Shown here: positions 4,822 through 55,376 of the stretch, piece after piece
How positions within the stretch are numbered: position 1 is the stretch's first letter
Layout: each line of letters starts with the position of its first letter
Assembly: GCA_035631035.1 (NCBI GenBank)
Contig: DASQJL010000082.1
Coordinates: 62,001 to 126,000, forward strand
Origin: Candidatus Binatia bacterium
GTDB taxonomy: Bacteria; Eisenbacteria; RBG-16-71-46; SZUA-252
Reading direction: 5' to 3'
Length of the DNA stretch: 64,000 bases
Program-made: the position numbers and the translations under genes
The notes under the pieces: model-generated
Database searches by the model: none
Told to the model about the DNA's origin: nothing
The model's input: the letters and a program-made list of their open reading frames with translations, nothing else

Positions 4822-7539
4822 TCAGAACTGGACCCCCAATCCGACGCGGATCACGCGACCCTGCTGGTACACGCGCGGGTCGTTCACGGGGTACCAGTCC
4901 TCGACCCCGTCTCCCGTCTGGTCCGCCGTCAAGAAGGCGCCGCCGGCACGGCCCGTTTCCGTGTAGTAGACCCGATACGACGTGGGATTCACCTGGTTGT
5001 CCGGCCAGAGGCTCGGCTGCAGGTCGCTGATGTTCTTCGCGTCGAGCAGGTTCGAGCCCTGGAGATAGAACGTCACGTTCTGCCCCCACACCCTGAAGAA
5101 GCGCTCCGCCTGGACGGAGAGGGTGGACGTCGAGGGGAGGCGCAGCGAGTTGGTCAGGGTCGGATCCTGCCGCCGCTGCGACCGCTGCTCCGGCGTGTAG
5201 GGAACGCCGGTGCCGAACTGATAGACGAAGGTGGACGCCCAGTCCTTCTCGTTCCCCAGCCGCAGCGTCGCCGAGATGCTGTGCCGCTGATCCCAGTCGA
5301 GCGGCTGCTCGGAGGTCGGCTTGAACTGGTCGCGGAGGTTCCCCGACGAGGCGAGCGCGCGGTTCGGGTCGGACGCCGTTCCGCTCGAGTTCGAATAGGT
5401 GTAGTTGAGCTCGCCCGAGAAGCCGTGGCTGTGCTGCTTGATCAGGGTCACTTCGATCCCCCGCGAGGAGGCGTAGTCGCCGTTCACCCAGGTGGGCACC
5501 GTGACCGAGAAGCCCGGGATCTCCTGATCCACCGTCGTCAGGAGCCCGAAGATGTCTTTGAAGTAGACGCCGAACTGCCCGTAGATCTCCTTGCTGAAGA
5601 GGTGCTGCACGCCCAGCTGGTAGGCGATGGTGGTCTGCGGCTCGAGGTTCGGATTGCCGCGCGCCTCGGCCGAGACGTTCTTGCCCTGATAGATGAAGAG
5701 CCGGTCGGGAACCTGGAAGAGGCGCCCGTAGTGGAAGCTCATCACGTCGCGGTCGGAGATCGGATAGGCAATCCCGATGCGCGGGCTCCACTGCGTCTTG
5801 ACCGGATGGGTCACGAGATTGCGATCGACCTGGTTCCCCACCGAGAAGTTGTCGTAGCGCATCCCCGCGTTCAGGACCATCCCCTCGTACTGCCAGCGAT
5901 CCTGGGCGTAGAAGGACCCCTCGGGGTTGAAGTTCCGGAACTCGTCGCGCGTCGCGCCGTAGTTGCCGGTGGCGTCGAGCACGTTCGGGAACTGCGTCAG
6001 CAGATACTGGAGGTCGTTGTAGTTGAAATCGCCGCCGACCATGAAGTTGTGCTGGCCGAACTTCTTCGAGAGGTCCCCGTTCATGGTGTAGGTCGTCGTC
6101 CGGCGGTTCTCGTAGAACGGGTAGTCCCCGTTCGTGACGTAGTAGGCCCCGTTCAGGCGGTTGAAGGGGTCGTAGTACGCGTTCGGCTGCGCCTGGTACT
6201 CCCAGAGCTGCCGGCCGAGCACGTCCTGGCGGGACTGCCACTCCTGGCGCGAGGCCCGCAGGTTGTAGATCGCTCCGTTGTTCATGACGCTCCGCCAGGT
6301 CAGCGCGATCTGCTCGTAGTCCTCGGTCGTGATCGGGAGATGGTCCGCGGTGTTCATCGGCACGAACGAGGAATCGACCTGGTAGTACGCCCACGTCCCG
6401 TAGCGCTGCGTGATCGTCCCGTCCGTCGGCGCGGTGCTGTCCGAGACCAGCTGCACGAATCCCTTCCGATTCCACCGATTGTGGAAGCGGCTGCTGAGCG
6501 AAGCGTTCCGGATCACCTCGAGATTCATCTTCTGGTTGGGAGTCACCTTCCAGGTCAGCTTGCTCGAGAAGTTGGTCGCGTTGGACTGCTTGTTGCCGAT
6601 CCGGATGAAGTCCAGGAACCGGTGTTCCTTCTGCTCCGAGGTGTTCCGCAGATAGGTGTCGCTGTAGGTCCCCTCGAAGGAGACGTAGTAGTTGGTCTTC
6701 GGGAAGACGAACGGCCCGCCGAAGCCCACGCTGAGCCGCTCGAAATCGTTGAACGACTTGTCCTGCTCGCCGTAGCGGTCGGTGAAGTAGCGGGCCTCGC
6801 CGCCGAACTTGTCGCCGCCCTCGCGCGTGGTGAGCGCGATGACGCCGGAGAGGGCGTTTCCGTACTGCGCGTCCATCCCGCCGAGCACCTGCTCGCTCGA
6901 AGAGACGGCGAGGAGCCCGAGGTCCACGCCCTCGGCGCGCATCGGGTTCCGGCTCGGGATGCCGTTGACGATGGTGAGCACCTCGTCCTCACGGCCGCCG
7001 CGGAAGTGCAGCGCGCCGCCCTGGCTGATGACTCCCGCCTTGAGGGCGATCGCGTCCTTGTAGCTGTCCACGGGCAGCGCGTGCAGGTCTTCGGAGGTGA
7101 CGACCTGCTTGGTCGAAGAGCTCGTCTTGTTGACCGCGATCTTGGCGTTGCTCTTCACTTCGACGGCCCCGATCTTGATCGCGGATTCGACGATCTTGAG
7201 ATTGGCGACGGTGGTGCGGTTGGCGTCCACCTGGACGACCTTGTCGTCCCGCGTGTAGCCGACCTGCATGGCGCGAATGGTGTAGGAACCGACCGGAACG
7301 CGGACGATGCTGTACTTCCCTTCGGCGTTGGTGAACGCCCCCATCTGCTTTCCCAGGATGATGACCGAGACGCCAGACATGGGACCGCCGCTTCCGTCGG
7401 TGACGGTGCCGCTGATGGTTCCAGTCTGCGCGAGCGACTGGGCGGGAAGGATGGACGGCGCGACGACGAACAGCAACGCGGCGACCAGGGGAAGCAGCGC
7501 CCGGGCGCATCCGCGTCGTCGGGAACTCATGCTCGGCAT
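4822..7539 (-). CDS. TonB-dependent receptor with N-terminal carboxypeptidase-regulatory-like domain
   Basis: A 905-residue outer-membrane receptor. Order of parts: signal peptide (ARALLPLVAALLFVVAPSILPAQS), a CarboxypepD_reg-like beta-sandwich (GTISGTVTDGSGGPMSGVSV, about residues 38-120), a plug domain (LHFRGGREDEVLTIVNGIP; YGNALSGVIALTTREGG) and a ~22-strand-type barrel ending in VGLGVQF with terminal Phe. Start chosen at ATG 7539, where AAAGGAG lies 11 nt upstream and the signal peptide follows; longer in-frame starts reach into the promoter. Such receptors import siderophores, cobalamin or glycans using TonB energy; no substrate is evident and no SusD partner is adjacent. It is the first gene after a 324-nt gap carrying a promoter. 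Confidence 0.92.
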   Translation of the reverse strand: MPSMSSRRRGCARALLPLVAALLFVVAPSILPAQSLAQTGTISGTVTDGSGGPMSGVSVIILGKQMGAFTNAEGKYSIVRVPVGSYTIRAMQVGYTRDDKVVQVDANRTTVANLKIVESAIKIGAVEVKSNAKIAVNKTSSSTKQVVTSEDLHALPVDSYKDAIALKAGVISQGGALHFRGGREDEVLTIVNGIPSRNPMRAEGVDLGLLAVSSSEQVLGGMDAQYGNALSGVIALTTREGGDKFGGEARYFTDRYGEQDKSFNDFERLSVGFGGPFVFPKTNYYVSFEGTYSDTYLRNTSEQKEHRFLDFIRIGNKQSNATNFSSKLTWKVTPNQKMNLEVIRNASLSSRFHNRWNRKGFVQLVSDSTAPTDGTITQRYGTWAYYQVDSSFVPMNTADHLPITTEDYEQIALTWRSVMNNGAIYNLRASRQEWQSRQDVLGRQLWEYQAQPNAYYDPFNRLNGAYYVTNGDYPFYENRRTTTYTMNGDLSKKFGQHNFMVGGDFNYNDLQYLLTQFPNVLDATGNYGATRDEFRNFNPEGSFYAQDRWQYEGMVLNAGMRYDNFSVGNQVDRNLVTHPVKTQWSPRIGIAYPISDRDVMSFHYGRLFQVPDRLFIYQGKNVSAEARGNPNLEPQTTIAYQLGVQHLFSKEIYGQFGVYFKDIFGLLTTVDQEIPGFSVTVPTWVNGDYASSRGIEVTLIKQHSHGFSGELNYTYSNSSGTASDPNRALASSGNLRDQFKPTSEQPLDWDQRHSISATLRLGNEKDWASTFVYQFGTGVPYTPEQRSQRRQDPTLTNSLRLPSTSTLSVQAERFFRVWGQNVTFYLQGSNLLDAKNISDLQPSLWPDNQVNPTSYRVYYTETGRAGGAFLTADQTGDGVEDWYPVNDPRVYQQGRVIRVGLGVQF

Positions 7540-7863
7540 GGCTTCATGCGCTCCTTTCCATGGCGGGTTTCGAAATCGTGACAAAGTGGCTGATTCTAGG
7601 CCGTCCTGAGCGGTTCTCGTCAAGGCAAAACCCTTCAAATTTCGAGTGTTCGGGGCATCGCAAGCCGATTCGGCATCTCCCGCCTCCAGGTCAGCCGCAA
7701 TGGACGGCGCGCAGGGCGACAAGGAACGAAGCCGATGGATGGGGGGGGGATTTCCAGAGACGTCCGGCAGGTACTCAACTCGTCTCTACGCCAGGATTAT
7801 ATTCAGGTTCGCGCGGCCCGCAAGGGGTAATTTCACTTTTCCGCCCTTCCGGACGGCCCAAAC
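7540..7863. other. 324-nt intergenic region upstream of the TonB-dependent receptor
   Basis: The largest non-coding gap in the window. Read on the minus strand it holds the end of the TldE transcript, a GC-rich stretch, an uninterrupted run of nine identical bases (G on plus, 7741-7749), and a sigma-70-like promoter close to the receptor. An imperfect 6-bp stem (CCGTCC/GGGCGG) just after the tldE stop lacks a U tract, so I do not call a terminator. No small ORF with a ribosome site was seen. Confidence 0.6.
7593..7623 (-). promoter_or_regulatory. Candidate sigma-70-type promoter for the TonB receptor operon
   Basis: On the minus strand TTGACG (7618-7623) and TAGAAT (7593-7598) are separated by 19 nt, slightly long but otherwise close to consensus. 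The -10 box ends about 53 nt before the receptor ATG, leaving room for a short leader with the AAAGGAG site. Confidence 0.5.
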
Positions 7864-51111: not shown

Positions 51112-51141
51112 ATGCTAGCAAGGCATGTATGCAGCAGTCAA
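51112..51141 (-). promoter_or_regulatory. Promoter of the kdsB-pyrG-kdsA-kdsD-lpt-rpoN-PTS operon
   Basis: TTGACT (51136-51141), 18-nt spacer, TAGCAT (51112-51117) on the minus strand, in the short gap after the first TonB-domain gene. Transcription would begin near 51105, at or next to an alternative kdsB GTG (51106). Confidence 0.65.
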
Positions 51142-51160: not shown

Positions 51161-53305
51161 CTATTCACTGGGTGGGAACGGAACCGACGCCTCGATCCAG
51201 ACGGCAACCGGCTTGTTGTTGCTCAACGCGGGTTTGTACACCCAGCGGGAGACAGCTTCCGTGGCCGCGGCGTCGAGGCCGTCCACGCTCCGCACCACCT
51301 TCACCTTCCGGACACGGCCGTCGCGTCCAATCAGGAGATGGACCACAACCGTTCCACGGATGCCGGCGGTTCGAGCGGCCTCCGGGTAGACCGGTGCCGG
51401 ACCCTCGAGTTTCACAGGAGGGTCCTCGTAATAGACGAACTCGCCGTGTTCAGGATCTCCGTTGGGGGGAGCACGGAACGTATCGGCGCCGCTCTGCTGG
51501 GGGGGCGGCTTCCATGTTCGTCTTCGGGAAGACGACACCAGAATCTTGAAATCAGTCCAGGCCCCGACCGGGCTTCCGTGGAACACCGACGGACGATATC
51601 GACTTCGGCGCACAACTCTGTTGATCTCCGCGTCGGTGCCCGGAACGCCACGGACGACTTGAACGCTCCGGACCAACCCGTCGATGCCAACGAACACGCG
51701 GACCTGAACCGTATCCCAGGGAGCGCCGCCGGAACGCAGATTTCCGAGAAGCAGCGAGTCGGCCTGCAGGAGCGCAGGGAGCCCTCCGCTGCGCGCCGTG
51801 GCGATAGCCCAGGTCGCAGGGTCGATCCCGCGAGGTGGTGGCTGGTCGTGCGGCACCAGCACGCCCAAGTCGACGCGCGCCGTGATCGGTCGCCCGTCGA
51901 GAAAGGCGGGAAAAAACGTCCACTCGAGAGCCCGTCGCTCGGTCTCATCCACGAGCCCCGGCGTCCGCGGAAACACGCTCTCGACCGTTCCACGGTTCGA
52001 CAGATCGGCCCGATACCAGATGGTATCCGCCGCGGCTCCTTTCGCCTGAAGCGCGCGCGACCCGGCGTCCATCCGAAGCCTCTGCGGAGCTCGGAATCGT
52101 GAAGGCTCTGGAGACTCCAGAACCCGTCCGCCCCAGGTGGACTTGGACAATCCCCGGACAAGCACCCTGAGCCGGTCCGCAATGGGCGCGCAGCCCGCGG
52201 CGATGGGCTGAAGCCCTCGTGAACGCATCGAGATCAGATCGGGCTCGAGATCGAGCACGAGCCGGGTCGAGTCCACGCGATTCTCCGAGCGGACTTCCCA
52301 GAGTTGCGCGTCATCGTAGAGGGTCAGGCTGTCCGTTCCCCTCGCAAAGGCTCCGGGAAGCTCAAGCAAGGCAATCAGGCTCTCCCTCCAGCCGGGAGGA
52401 GGCATGGAAACGGTCCCCAGCAGCTGGGGACGTCGTGCCGTCATGTCCAGACGGAGGGACCTCGGGATCAGGACTTCGATCGCGCGCGCCTGACGCAAGC
52501 GCTCGATGTGGCGCGCGAGGAGATCGCGATCGGGACCCGAACCCGCGAATCCGCTCGCCGCGCTCCCCAGGACAAGAGCGAGGACGGCGCCCAGAATGCC
52601 CGCTGGGGTTCGCTTCCCTCCCGATGGGAACGACGGAGGTCCTTGGCGCAGGCGGCGATGACGGTCGAACCATGCGGCCCATGGCACGAGGAACCACAGC
52701 GCGAGACCAGTCCACGCGATCGTCCGCACCATGTCCGGTCCCGGCGTGGGCGGCGGCCCCGCCACGTCGCCCAGCCAGATCAGGGAAAGAAACGCGAGGA
52801 ACAGGACGAAACCCCACGTTCCCCGCCGGTCGCGCGCCTTGGTCTGCACGGCATAGATCGCTACGGCCGCCACGTACATCGCGGTCTCGATCGTCACCTC
52901 GAGCGCCGGGTGGTTCCAGAGGCCGAGCCCGACGCGGGTGGAAATCCCCGGAGCGAGCTGGAGGTCGGGGCGATGGGTGATCCAGTCCAGGAACCAATGG
53001 CTGAAGACGGCGACGCCAAGCATGAGCGCGCCGATCCGGTATCGCTTCCGCGCCCCATAGACGCCTCCGATGAGCACCGCCCAGACGATCGCCATCAGGA
53101 GACTGTGCGAGATCGGGTAGGCATCGAACGCCAGCGGCGTCGCCTTCGTGGCGGCCACGTCGATGTGGAATCGCTCCAGACCCAGCAGCACGAGCGGCGG
53201 CCAGATGAGGTCGAGGAACTGCGCCCCGAAGATCAGGGTGCCGAGCGACATCTTCGGCGCGACCCGCTTCCCCGCAAGAGCGACCGCGAAGTGTCCGACG
53301 AACAT
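51161..53305 (-). CDS. Fusion: YdjM-like membrane hydrolase domain plus two TonB C-terminal domains
   Basis: A 714-residue protein of unusual build. Residues ~1-235 form six or seven membrane helices with conserved His/Asp (FVGHFAVALAGKR, YPISHSLLMAIVW, FSHWFLDWITHRPDL), as in the YdjM/metal-dependent hydrolase-like family. After a helix at ~240-260, a long extracytoplasmic region carries a first TonB C-terminal domain (~528-590; VQVRVFVGIDGLVRSVQVVR) and a canonical second one at the end (629-714; VYPEAARTAGIRGTVVVHLL, VVRSVDGLDAA, WVYKPAL). ATG 53305 shares one base with the previous stop. Role unknown; coupling of envelope partners is inferred. Confidence 0.75.
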   Translation of the reverse strand: MFVGHFAVALAGKRVAPKMSLGTLIFGAQFLDLIWPPLVLLGLERFHIDVAATKATPLAFDAYPISHSLLMAIVWAVLIGGVYGARKRYRIGALMLGVAVFSHWFLDWITHRPDLQLAPGISTRVGLGLWNHPALEVTIETAMYVAAVAIYAVQTKARDRRGTWGFVLFLAFLSLIWLGDVAGPPPTPGPDMVRTIAWTGLALWFLVPWAAWFDRHRRLRQGPPSFPSGGKRTPAGILGAVLALVLGSAASGFAGSGPDRDLLARHIERLRQARAIEVLIPRSLRLDMTARRPQLLGTVSMPPPGWRESLIALLELPGAFARGTDSLTLYDDAQLWEVRSENRVDSTRLVLDLEPDLISMRSRGLQPIAAGCAPIADRLRVLVRGLSKSTWGGRVLESPEPSRFRAPQRLRMDAGSRALQAKGAAADTIWYRADLSNRGTVESVFPRTPGLVDETERRALEWTFFPAFLDGRPITARVDLGVLVPHDQPPPRGIDPATWAIATARSGGLPALLQADSLLLGNLRSGGAPWDTVQVRVFVGIDGLVRSVQVVRGVPGTDAEINRVVRRSRYRPSVFHGSPVGAWTDFKILVSSSRRRTWKPPPQQSGADTFRAPPNGDPEHGEFVYYEDPPVKLEGPAPVYPEAARTAGIRGTVVVHLLIGRDGRVRKVKVVRSVDGLDAAATEAVSRWVYKPALSNNKPVAVWIEASVPFPPSE

Positions 53306-54225
53306 CAGGGAAGATGAAACTCCACGGGCACGTCGATCCAAACCGGCACCGGAGTGCCGTGAAGGAGCGCGGGCTTGTAGACCCAGCGCCCGACGGCATC
53401 CGCCGCGGAGGCGTCGAGATAGTTCACGCTACGGACCACCTTTACATCCTGGACTCTTCCGCTCGCAGCGACCAGGACGCGCAAGAGGACCGTCCCTTCG
53501 ATCTTTGCCTCCCGGGCCATCTCGGGATAGACGGGGGTGATCCGCGAGACGACTTCCGGCGGCGTGTCGTACGCCTGCTTGCTGGTGGCCTCAGGTATCG
53601 ATCGATTGGCGATCCCCTGCACGAACCAGATGTCGGGTGGAGGCGCCAGCGATGGCGCCAACCCCCGGTGACGCATCGCGCTCTCGACGACGGGGAGCGC
53701 CTCCGGGTTTTGCGGATCGTAAGCCCACAGACACCAGGCCAGATCCGTCCGGAGCGTATCCGGTAGCCGGGCGGAAAGGGCGCCCTCCCCGGGCTTGAAG
53801 AGTGCTGCCGAAGACCCCTCGAGGGATACGAGCAGATCGATGCCGAGCGAGTCCTCCGACCAGTGGAGACGCAGCGTCGGCGGCGCTGCGCCGGGCCAGC
53901 CCGGGACGCGCACCCAGGAGCAGCCCGCGAGCATGCCCAGCAGACGGCGCAGCGCCTTGTCGGGTCGGGTGCGAAGCGGGACGACGTTTCGGAATGAGTC
54001 GGAGCCGACAACGAAGATCGTGCCCGTGTCGGAGCCGGCGGTCGTCAGTCGGTAGGCTGTCGGCGGCCTGCGGAGGAGTTGTGAAAACAGGTCTGGATCG
54101 GTGAGGTGGATCGAGCTGGATTTCGCCGGTTCCGGAGCCGCTGCCTTCTCGGGAGCGCAATTCCCCGTTCCGGCCGTCCCAAGGCCGATCACAGCAATGG
54201 CGAACGCGGTACGCAGCCCTTTCAT
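53305..54225 (-). CDS. TonB C-terminal domain protein with a second conserved region (copy 2)
   Basis: A 306-residue secreted protein: signal peptide (LRTAFAIAVIGLGTAGTGNC, a non-canonical lipobox-like end), a middle domain (about 65-200) containing DLLVSLEG, PGEG, and LAWCLWAYDPQN (162-173), and a TonB C-terminal domain (220-306; VYPEMAREAKIEGTVLLRVLV, VVRSVNYLDA, RWVYKPALLHG). The middle part is clearly shared with the next gene upstream, so the two are tandem paralogues. It lacks the membrane anchor and Pro-rich spacer of ordinary TonB. ATG 54225 overlaps the preceding stop as ATGA. Confidence 0.75.
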   Translation of the reverse strand: MKGLRTAFAIAVIGLGTAGTGNCAPEKAAAPEPAKSSSIHLTDPDLFSQLLRRPPTAYRLTTAGSDTGTIFVVGSDSFRNVVPLRTRPDKALRRLLGMLAGCSWVRVPGWPGAAPPTLRLHWSEDSLGIDLLVSLEGSSAALFKPGEGALSARLPDTLRTDLAWCLWAYDPQNPEALPVVESAMRHRGLAPSLAPPPDIWFVQGIANRSIPEATSKQAYDTPPEVVSRITPVYPEMAREAKIEGTVLLRVLVAASGRVQDVKVVRSVNYLDASAADAVGRWVYKPALLHGTPVPVWIDVPVEFHLP

Positions 54226-55163
54226 TGCCGCAAATAGTGATCCGGCGGCAAGTCCCGGAGCGAGAAGGTCACGGGGACTTCGACCCAATCTTCGATCGCT
54301 GCGCCTCCACGCATCGCGGGGCGAAAGGTCAGGACGCTCACTGCGGCCCGGGCGGCCGTGTCGAGGCCGGGGACCGAGTGGACCACTTCGATCGCGCCCA
54401 CCCGTCCGTCGGGGTCGACCCGTACGCGCAGGACGACGGTTCCTTCGATCCCAGCCATGCGCGCAAAGGGCGGGTATTCGGGCGAGACCTGACGGTCGAG
54501 CCGGGCATGCACGGTGGGAGGCTCGCTCTCCGTTGGTTGCGAAGACTGCAGCTCCAGAACCTGATTCAGGAACGCCAGAAAATCCGCCGGGGGCGTCATG
54601 GTGGGCTGCATCCTCAGGCGACGGAGCTCGTCGTGAACGAACGGCTGGACGTCCGCGTTTTCGGGGTCGAGGCCCCACAGGCACCAGGCGAGTTCCCCGT
54701 AGTCGCGGTCGGGAAGATCGCAGGCCGCGGTGCCTTCCCCGGGCACGGTCATCGTCGCCTTCATGGCCCGGAGCGAGATCAACAGATCGGCGCGGATGGA
54801 GTCGCTTTCGACCGAGAGACCCAGGGCGGGTGTCTCGGGTGAGGTCCAGCCGCGTGGCCACCGCATCCACGTGTACCTGGAAAGATCATCCACAAGGACG
54901 AAATAAGCCGCGGACGTTTCGATCGGCACCTCGCCCGTGATGACGAAGCAGTCGAGAGCCGATCCCCCGGCGAGGATCGCGGAATCGCACTGCGCGCTCC
55001 ATGAGCCTTCCACGCGGAAGGCGTGCACATCGCCGATCGCCAGACTGTCGAACAGCCCTGGCGCCTTGAGCGTGCGCAACGGGGCGGCGGAAGCCGGCGC
55101 CGCCCAAGTAGCGACCGCCAGAGCCATGAGGGCTGTCCGGAGCGATAACGAAGCCGAACTCAC
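54222..55163 (-). CDS. TonB C-terminal domain protein with a second conserved region (copy 1)
   Basis: A 313-residue secreted protein: signal peptide (TALMALAVATWAAPASA), a middle domain with DLLISLRA, PGEG and LAWCLWGLDPEN (158-169) matching the next gene, two cysteines (CDSAILAG; DCFVITG) and a TonB C-terminal domain at 220-313 (EYPPFARMAGIEGTVVLRVRV, VVHSVPGLDT). GTG 55163 has GGAG 7 nt upstream. First gene after the double hairpin, so it probably heads a three-gene transcript. No exbB or exbD is present in the window. Confidence 0.75.
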   Translation of the reverse strand: MSSASLSLRTALMALAVATWAAPASAAPLRTLKAPGLFDSLAIGDVHAFRVEGSWSAQCDSAILAGGSALDCFVITGEVPIETSAAYFVLVDDLSRYTWMRWPRGWTSPETPALGLSVESDSIRADLLISLRAMKATMTVPGEGTAACDLPDRDYGELAWCLWGLDPENADVQPFVHDELRRLRMQPTMTPPADFLAFLNQVLELQSSQPTESEPPTVHARLDRQVSPEYPPFARMAGIEGTVVLRVRVDPDGRVGAIEVVHSVPGLDTAARAAVSVLTFRPAMRGGAAIEDWVEVPVTFSLRDLPPDHYLRQ

Positions 55164-55376
55164 GGGTGCTCCTTGAAGACGTTGGGGGGATTACGTGGAG
55201 TCTAGCGCTTCCCAGGTTCAACGGGGACACGAATCGGGGTGTGAATATGACACTGCGCGGGTGAAATCGACGACGCCCGTCGCCCGGCATGGACGAGTGA
55301 TCGCTCTCAAACGAACTCGCCCCGGGGCGAGTTAACTTAAAGATTAACTGCCCTCGGGGCGATTCCGCTACCTGAG
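55164..55376 (-). promoter_or_regulatory. 213-nt leader/terminator region between mdh and the TonB-domain genes
   Basis: It contains the double hairpin (55314-55361), a TAGACT -10-like box with no convincing -35 box, and the ribosome site of the first TonB-domain gene. I could not settle on a promoter, so expression may be by read-through from mdh past the hairpins. Confidence 0.4.
55314..55361 (-). terminator. Overlapping inverted repeats downstream of mdh (terminator or attenuator)
   Basis: A perfect 20-nt palindrome (55314-55333, centre CCCCGGGG) overlaps the 3' arm of a larger hairpin: 55344-55361 pairs with 55318-55335 (CGCCCCG...GTTAA arms, two single-base bulges, 8-nt loop CTTAAAGA/its complement). 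The two structures exclude one another. The following bases on the minus strand are only modestly T-rich (TTCGTTTG), so an intrinsic terminator is likely but not certain. Confidence 0.5.

Follow-up and report, generated by a model that had tools for sequence, protein, structure and literature searches.

What do TonB C-terminal (TonB_C) domains do in proteins whose genes have no motor beside them? With this domain the energy-transfer protein TonB holds on to outer-membrane transporters. The 64,000-nucleotide stretch of DNA analysed here (the window) carries three consecutive genes, A, B and C, that encode such domains in the interval between mdh and kdsB, and no exbB or exbD gene was found in that slot. 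We give an even chance to the reading that the trio forms an operon in a variable slot, with translational coupling between its genes, and that its products are TonB_C proteins that face the periplasm and have no motor.

Gene organization and domain content

All three genes lie on the minus strand and overlap head to tail (Table 1), by 4 bp between A and B (ATGA) and by 1 bp between B and C (TGATG). The likely starts are GTG 55163 for A, which follows AAGGAG, ATG 54225 for B and ATG 53305 for C; the TTG at 53341 that opens the raw reading frame of C is not needed. The trio has mdh upstream and kdsB/pyrG downstream, and a strong terminator-like hairpin after mdh, matched in stability by none of 200 shuffled sequences, sets it apart from mdh. 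The sequence-only reading, an earlier model-made annotation of the window, had placed the genes between mdh and the LPS/PTS operon, after a double hairpin. Scans for promoters and terminators gave nothing useful. A promoter-like site, TTGACT-18-TAGCAT with a TG, is present on the minus strand at 51112–51141 of the window, just before kdsB, and is possibly the LPS operon's own promoter.

Table 1 Features of the trio and its surroundings (window coordinates; amino acids numbered within each protein).
Feature	Coordinates	Strand	Description
Gene A	54222..55163	-	313 aa; AxA signal peptide, ~175-aa N-domain, TonB_C aa 223-302
Gene B	53305..54225	-	306 aa; hydrophobic N-terminal export segment, N-domain, TonB_C aa 220-305
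Gene C	51161..53305	-	714 aa; YdjM-like aa 1-222, seventh segment aa 235-253, three TonB_C modules
YdjM-like part of C	52640..53305	-	aa 1-222, six hydrophobic segments; PF04307 32.6 bits
C module 1	51866..52024	-	cryptic partial TonB_C, aa 428-480; 11.7 bits in whole protein
C module 2	51545..51712	-	partial TonB_C, aa 532-587; 32.4 bits (relatives-only profile)
C module 3	51176..51427	-	complete TonB_C, aa 627-710; 100.7 bits (relatives-only profile)
Terminator-like hairpin after mdh	55290..55376	-	MFE -44 kcal/mol, z -6.1

A profile search with PF03544 (cut-off 24.6 bits) placed all three proteins above the cut-off, with 63.2 bits for A, 76.9 bits for B and 103.3 bits over two stretches of C. 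TonB C-terminal domains in three consecutive genes, as the sequence-only reading had proposed, are present, and its count of four is slightly low. With a TonB_C profile built from relatives, from which the window sequences were kept out, we counted five modules, one in A (88.9 bits), one in B and three in C, of which three are whole and two partial. The complete modules of A, B and C (module 3) keep the YP motif. Modules 1 and 2 of C cover only positions 26–81 of the 86 in the profile and miss the N-terminal part that contains YP.

Module 1 of C, when excised alone, scored 16 bits against a maximum of 8.3 among 5000 shuffles, and structure prediction gave no resolved fold for it. Module 2, which scored 24.7 bits with the Pfam profile and has no YP motif, has a predicted beta-beta-alpha-beta core (pLDDT ~50–69). 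Module 3 is preceded by GEFVYYED-PPV, as in the TonBs of the family, and reached pLDDT ~83–94 across most of its length. The structure models are modest overall (mean pLDDT 65 and 48); in the model of A, the TonB_C domain reached pLDDT ~80–85 and matched the fold of the FoxA-bound TonB 6i97 with an E value of 1.2e-4. The best matches in both sequence and fold are solved TonB domains, receptor complexes among them.

A and B are paralogues, and their N-domains are 33% identical (E 4e-23). In a Pfam search up to E 1, A and B matched nothing but PF03544, which leaves this N-domain with no family there; its model had no confident structural match. Signal peptides and topology were assigned by hydropathy and by eye. 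A has an AxA-type signal peptide and no Pro-rich spacer, and B begins with a hydrophobic segment without a proper lipobox. In C, a seventh hydrophobic segment follows the six YdjM-like ones, and an unassigned stretch of ~170 aa (aa 254–425) lies between this segment and the modules; it has no significant similarity to the N-domains of A and B. Two secreted proteins and one multi-pass fusion, as first described, remain the best assignment by inspection.

Kinship of the modules and comparison with known systems

In a tree of TonB_C modules, which is based on 87 columns and resolves few forks, the B module forms a pair with the ExbBD-linked TonB of its own genome (support 87/94), and C module 3 lies inside the ExbBD-linked TonB clade of the family (support 100/100). 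Both share 53–62% identity with the family's motor-driven TonBs. Their nesting in this clade suggests that a working TonB was the source of the surface that faces the outer membrane. The A module and C module 2 fall loosely outside the family TonB clade; as so few forks are resolved, we did not use their positions as evidence of origin.

A survey of the phylum covered 96 TonB_C frames at 77 loci, in which the domain has recombined with many unrelated N-domains. Exported TonB_C proteins whose genes are not linked to ExbBD are common in it: by inspection of hydrophobic segments, at least 25 more, with a signal peptide or of lipoprotein type, were counted in 13 other genomes sampled. Their N-domains are mostly not homologous to those of A and B; only one, in the genome G046, is related, and weakly. 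One locus, L069 (G024:C501, 632–4231), has three successive exported TonB_C genes without ExbBD; its N-domains are unlike those of the trio and the row is an independent parallel. Double TonB_C proteins occur at L072, L073 and L074, and also at L113, where no export segment was found. A TonB-dependent receptor (Plug and barrel) with an N-terminal TonB_C, a layout named MxcH in NCBIfam, is encoded at L092 (560–3256). Fusions of M56 to TonB_C are found in relatives at L094 and L097. BlaR1–TonB_C fusions and tandem C-terminal domains were reportedly described by Chu et al. in 2007. Like the BlaR1/MecR1 (M56)–TonB_C fusions, C is a multi-pass membrane protein with a C-terminal TonB_C; unlike them, it has a YdjM-like part with no M56 match and three modules instead of one. 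By its match, aa 1–222 of C belongs to the YdjM family (PF04307) of membrane proteins, but in C this part runs on in frame into a periplasmic TonB_C tail.

The pairing of TonB_C with so many unrelated N-domains would also suit a general module that adds beta-strands or binds the cell wall in these proteins and never touches TonB boxes, the function being carried by the N-domains. The loose placement of the A module and C module 2 is compatible with this, and TonB-like proteins with non-transport roles are known from Anabaena (PMC8262864, PMC8597729). We consider such a general module unlikely, though worth keeping in mind, because B and C module 3 combine the YP motif with 53–62% identity to motor-driven TonBs, which points to the same partners.

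A and B can also be compared with VreA (PA0674), an experimentally studied precedent that acts in PUMA3 cell-surface signalling in Pseudomonas aeruginosa. VreA consists of a signal sequence, an N-domain, a short linker and a TonB/TolA-like C-domain and is mostly soluble (PMC2729926), so it is probably periplasmic. By inspection A and B have the same layout, and they might signal in a similar manner, with the N-domain talking to an inner-membrane regulator and TonB_C reading receptor occupancy. However, the N-domain of VreA is an STN domain and its gene overlaps an ECF sigma gene, whereas A and B carry another N-domain, in which a Pfam search up to E 1 found no STN, and no ECF sigma or anti-sigma gene lies beside the trio, whose neighbours are mdh, kdsB and pyrG. 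Signalling of the VreA type is thus quite doubtful.

The slot between mdh and kdsB

The mdh–kdsB interval is a variable slot in the family and holds different genes in each relative. It is empty in G040, with about 95 bp from kdsB to mdh, holds one exported protein in G041 and contains other genes in G044. In G043, a transposase frame (L163, 1502–2716) follows right after mdh, and kdsB is on another contig. The slot of G039 contains a lone YdjM and a membrane protein resembling a CAAX-type protease. This YdjM is a separate 221-aa protein encoded directly after mdh; it is 50% identical to aa 1–222 of C and scores 25.8 bits, below the PF04307 cut-off of 29 that C itself passes. The slot of G046 contains an A-like lipoprotein–TonB_C (N-domain E about 3e-5) together with an exported protein. 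Both the A-type gene and the YdjM part of C thus have a relative at this position, and C looks, from these comparisons, as if the ydjM of the slot had been joined in frame to a gene for an exported TonB_C protein.

GC3 in C is 0.82–0.95 over the YdjM-like part and 0.60–0.88 beyond it, with a step near the junction. We rejected the possibility that C is two genes misread as one: there is no stop codon and no ATG, GTG or TTG between aa 208 and 260, so C is one frame as assembled. The fusion rests on one sequence in one assembly, which together with the GC3 step leaves a small chance that it arose in sequencing or assembly. Neither the whole trio nor the C fusion was found in any other genome among 47 of the phylum (its own included). 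Two scans of GTDB contigs, one with the A/B N-domain alignment and one with the middle of C, gave no relative, although remote ones may have escaped patterns as short and strict as those used. The trio is ordinary in kind; what is new is the fusion C, which had no counterpart in any genome that we searched.

The occurrence of the whole set in a single genome of those searched, together with a GC3 of 0.77–0.79 in the trio (0.96 in mdh), two degenerate modules and a slot content that changes from relative to relative, might mean that the genes gathered recently in an unstable slot, are weakly selected or decaying, and have no settled function. Yet the three frames are long, intact and overlapping, A and the ydjM part have intact positional relatives in G046 and G039, and B and C module 3 are well conserved, which leaves mere accretion a slim chance.

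Motor linkage and proposed role

In TonB and TolA, the single membrane helix carries an SHLS motif that binds the motor (PMC12204202). In the window's own family, f1, we found the pattern [SA]xxxH in the membrane helix of 21/21 ExbBD-linked TonBs and in none of seven unlinked TonB_C frames, namely the trio and L071, L075, L084 and L131; L130, a frame at a contig edge, was left out. The S-x3-H motif is absent in A, in B and in the seventh segment of C. In the families f10 and f11, the ExbBD-linked TonBs are without a His in the membrane helix (L102, L104, L107, L110, L115, L117, L120, L133 and L138), so a missing His is no proof of a missing motor. The His position in linked TonBs of these two families often reads S-x-x-W or SAALN. 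The His motif is diagnostic within the window's family, not everywhere.

The three proteins resemble TonB in their PF03544 matches and their YP motifs. They differ from it in having neither the motor-binding helix motif nor linkage to ExbBD and, in C, in having seven membrane segments and three modules, so that the plans are indeed unlike that of a normal TonB. The genome is a 135-contig assembly in which MotA_ExbB was found on contigs C61 and C90, with four ExbD in total. On C61, ExbB is accompanied by two ExbD and two TonB; on C90, it is accompanied by two ExbD and a single TonB. These loci rule out a genome without ExbBD: the absence of ExbB/ExbD noted in the sequence-only reading is true of the slot and not of the genome, which has two ordinary ExbB/ExbD/TonB loci. 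Elsewhere, the genome has TolA/TolB/Pal-like genes on C3 and six Plug proteins. That reading had also suggested an energised or signalling envelope module apart from ordinary TonB–ExbBD. A role apart from the ordinary energised TonB holds up; the energised part does not, as the motif present in every linked TonB of the family is missing in the trio, and energisation appears unlikely on the evidence of the sequences. Energisation in trans by the ExbB/ExbD of C61 or C90, which both exist and for which segment seven of C, preceded by a positive loop, could sit N-in like a TonB helix, is very improbable, given that no export or anchor segment has S-x3-H, that A has by inspection a typical cleavable signal peptide and that the motor genes are unlinked to the trio.

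That the trio are motor-less periplasmic binders of outer-membrane partners is the reading we prefer, and we judge it about equally likely to be right or wrong. With the ExbB-binding helix motif missing, the proteins are most likely not force transducers. Binding is suggested by the kinship of the domains and by the solved TonB domains and receptor complexes among their best matches. A and B would be exported two-domain proteins, each joining a lineage-specific N-domain to a TonB_C in which the YP motif is retained, as is the edge strand where TonB boxes add. C would be a YdjM-like inner-membrane protein joined to a periplasmic TonB_C tail, in which the partial modules 1 and 2 probably act as spacer and module 3 is of the resident TonB type. 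C would act as an inner-membrane tether, provided that segment seven is not cut as an internal signal peptide. Together, the three could act as passive binders, that is, as adaptors, sensors or competitors at outer-membrane proteins that bear TonB boxes. A more specific version, rather speculative, is that C is a passive trans-envelope tether clamping a YdjM-type inner-membrane protein to TonB-box outer-membrane proteins through a TonB_C acquired from the cell's own TonB, and that A and B are soluble and compete with or gate the motor-driven TonB. The same window encodes a receptor-like protein (4822–7722, ~44 kb from the trio) with a carboxypeptidase-like N-domain, a Plug and a barrel, and it is a possible candidate for a TonB-box partner.

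The name "energy transducer TonB" is often given to TonB_C proteins regardless of their layout. In this one family, ExbBD-linked proteins, which have the His motif, and unlinked ones, which are mostly exported and do not have it, part cleanly, and some exported TonB_C proteins appear to carry a domain taken from a working TonB. Whether motor-less TonB grips regulate or compete with the motor-driven TonB is now a testable question.
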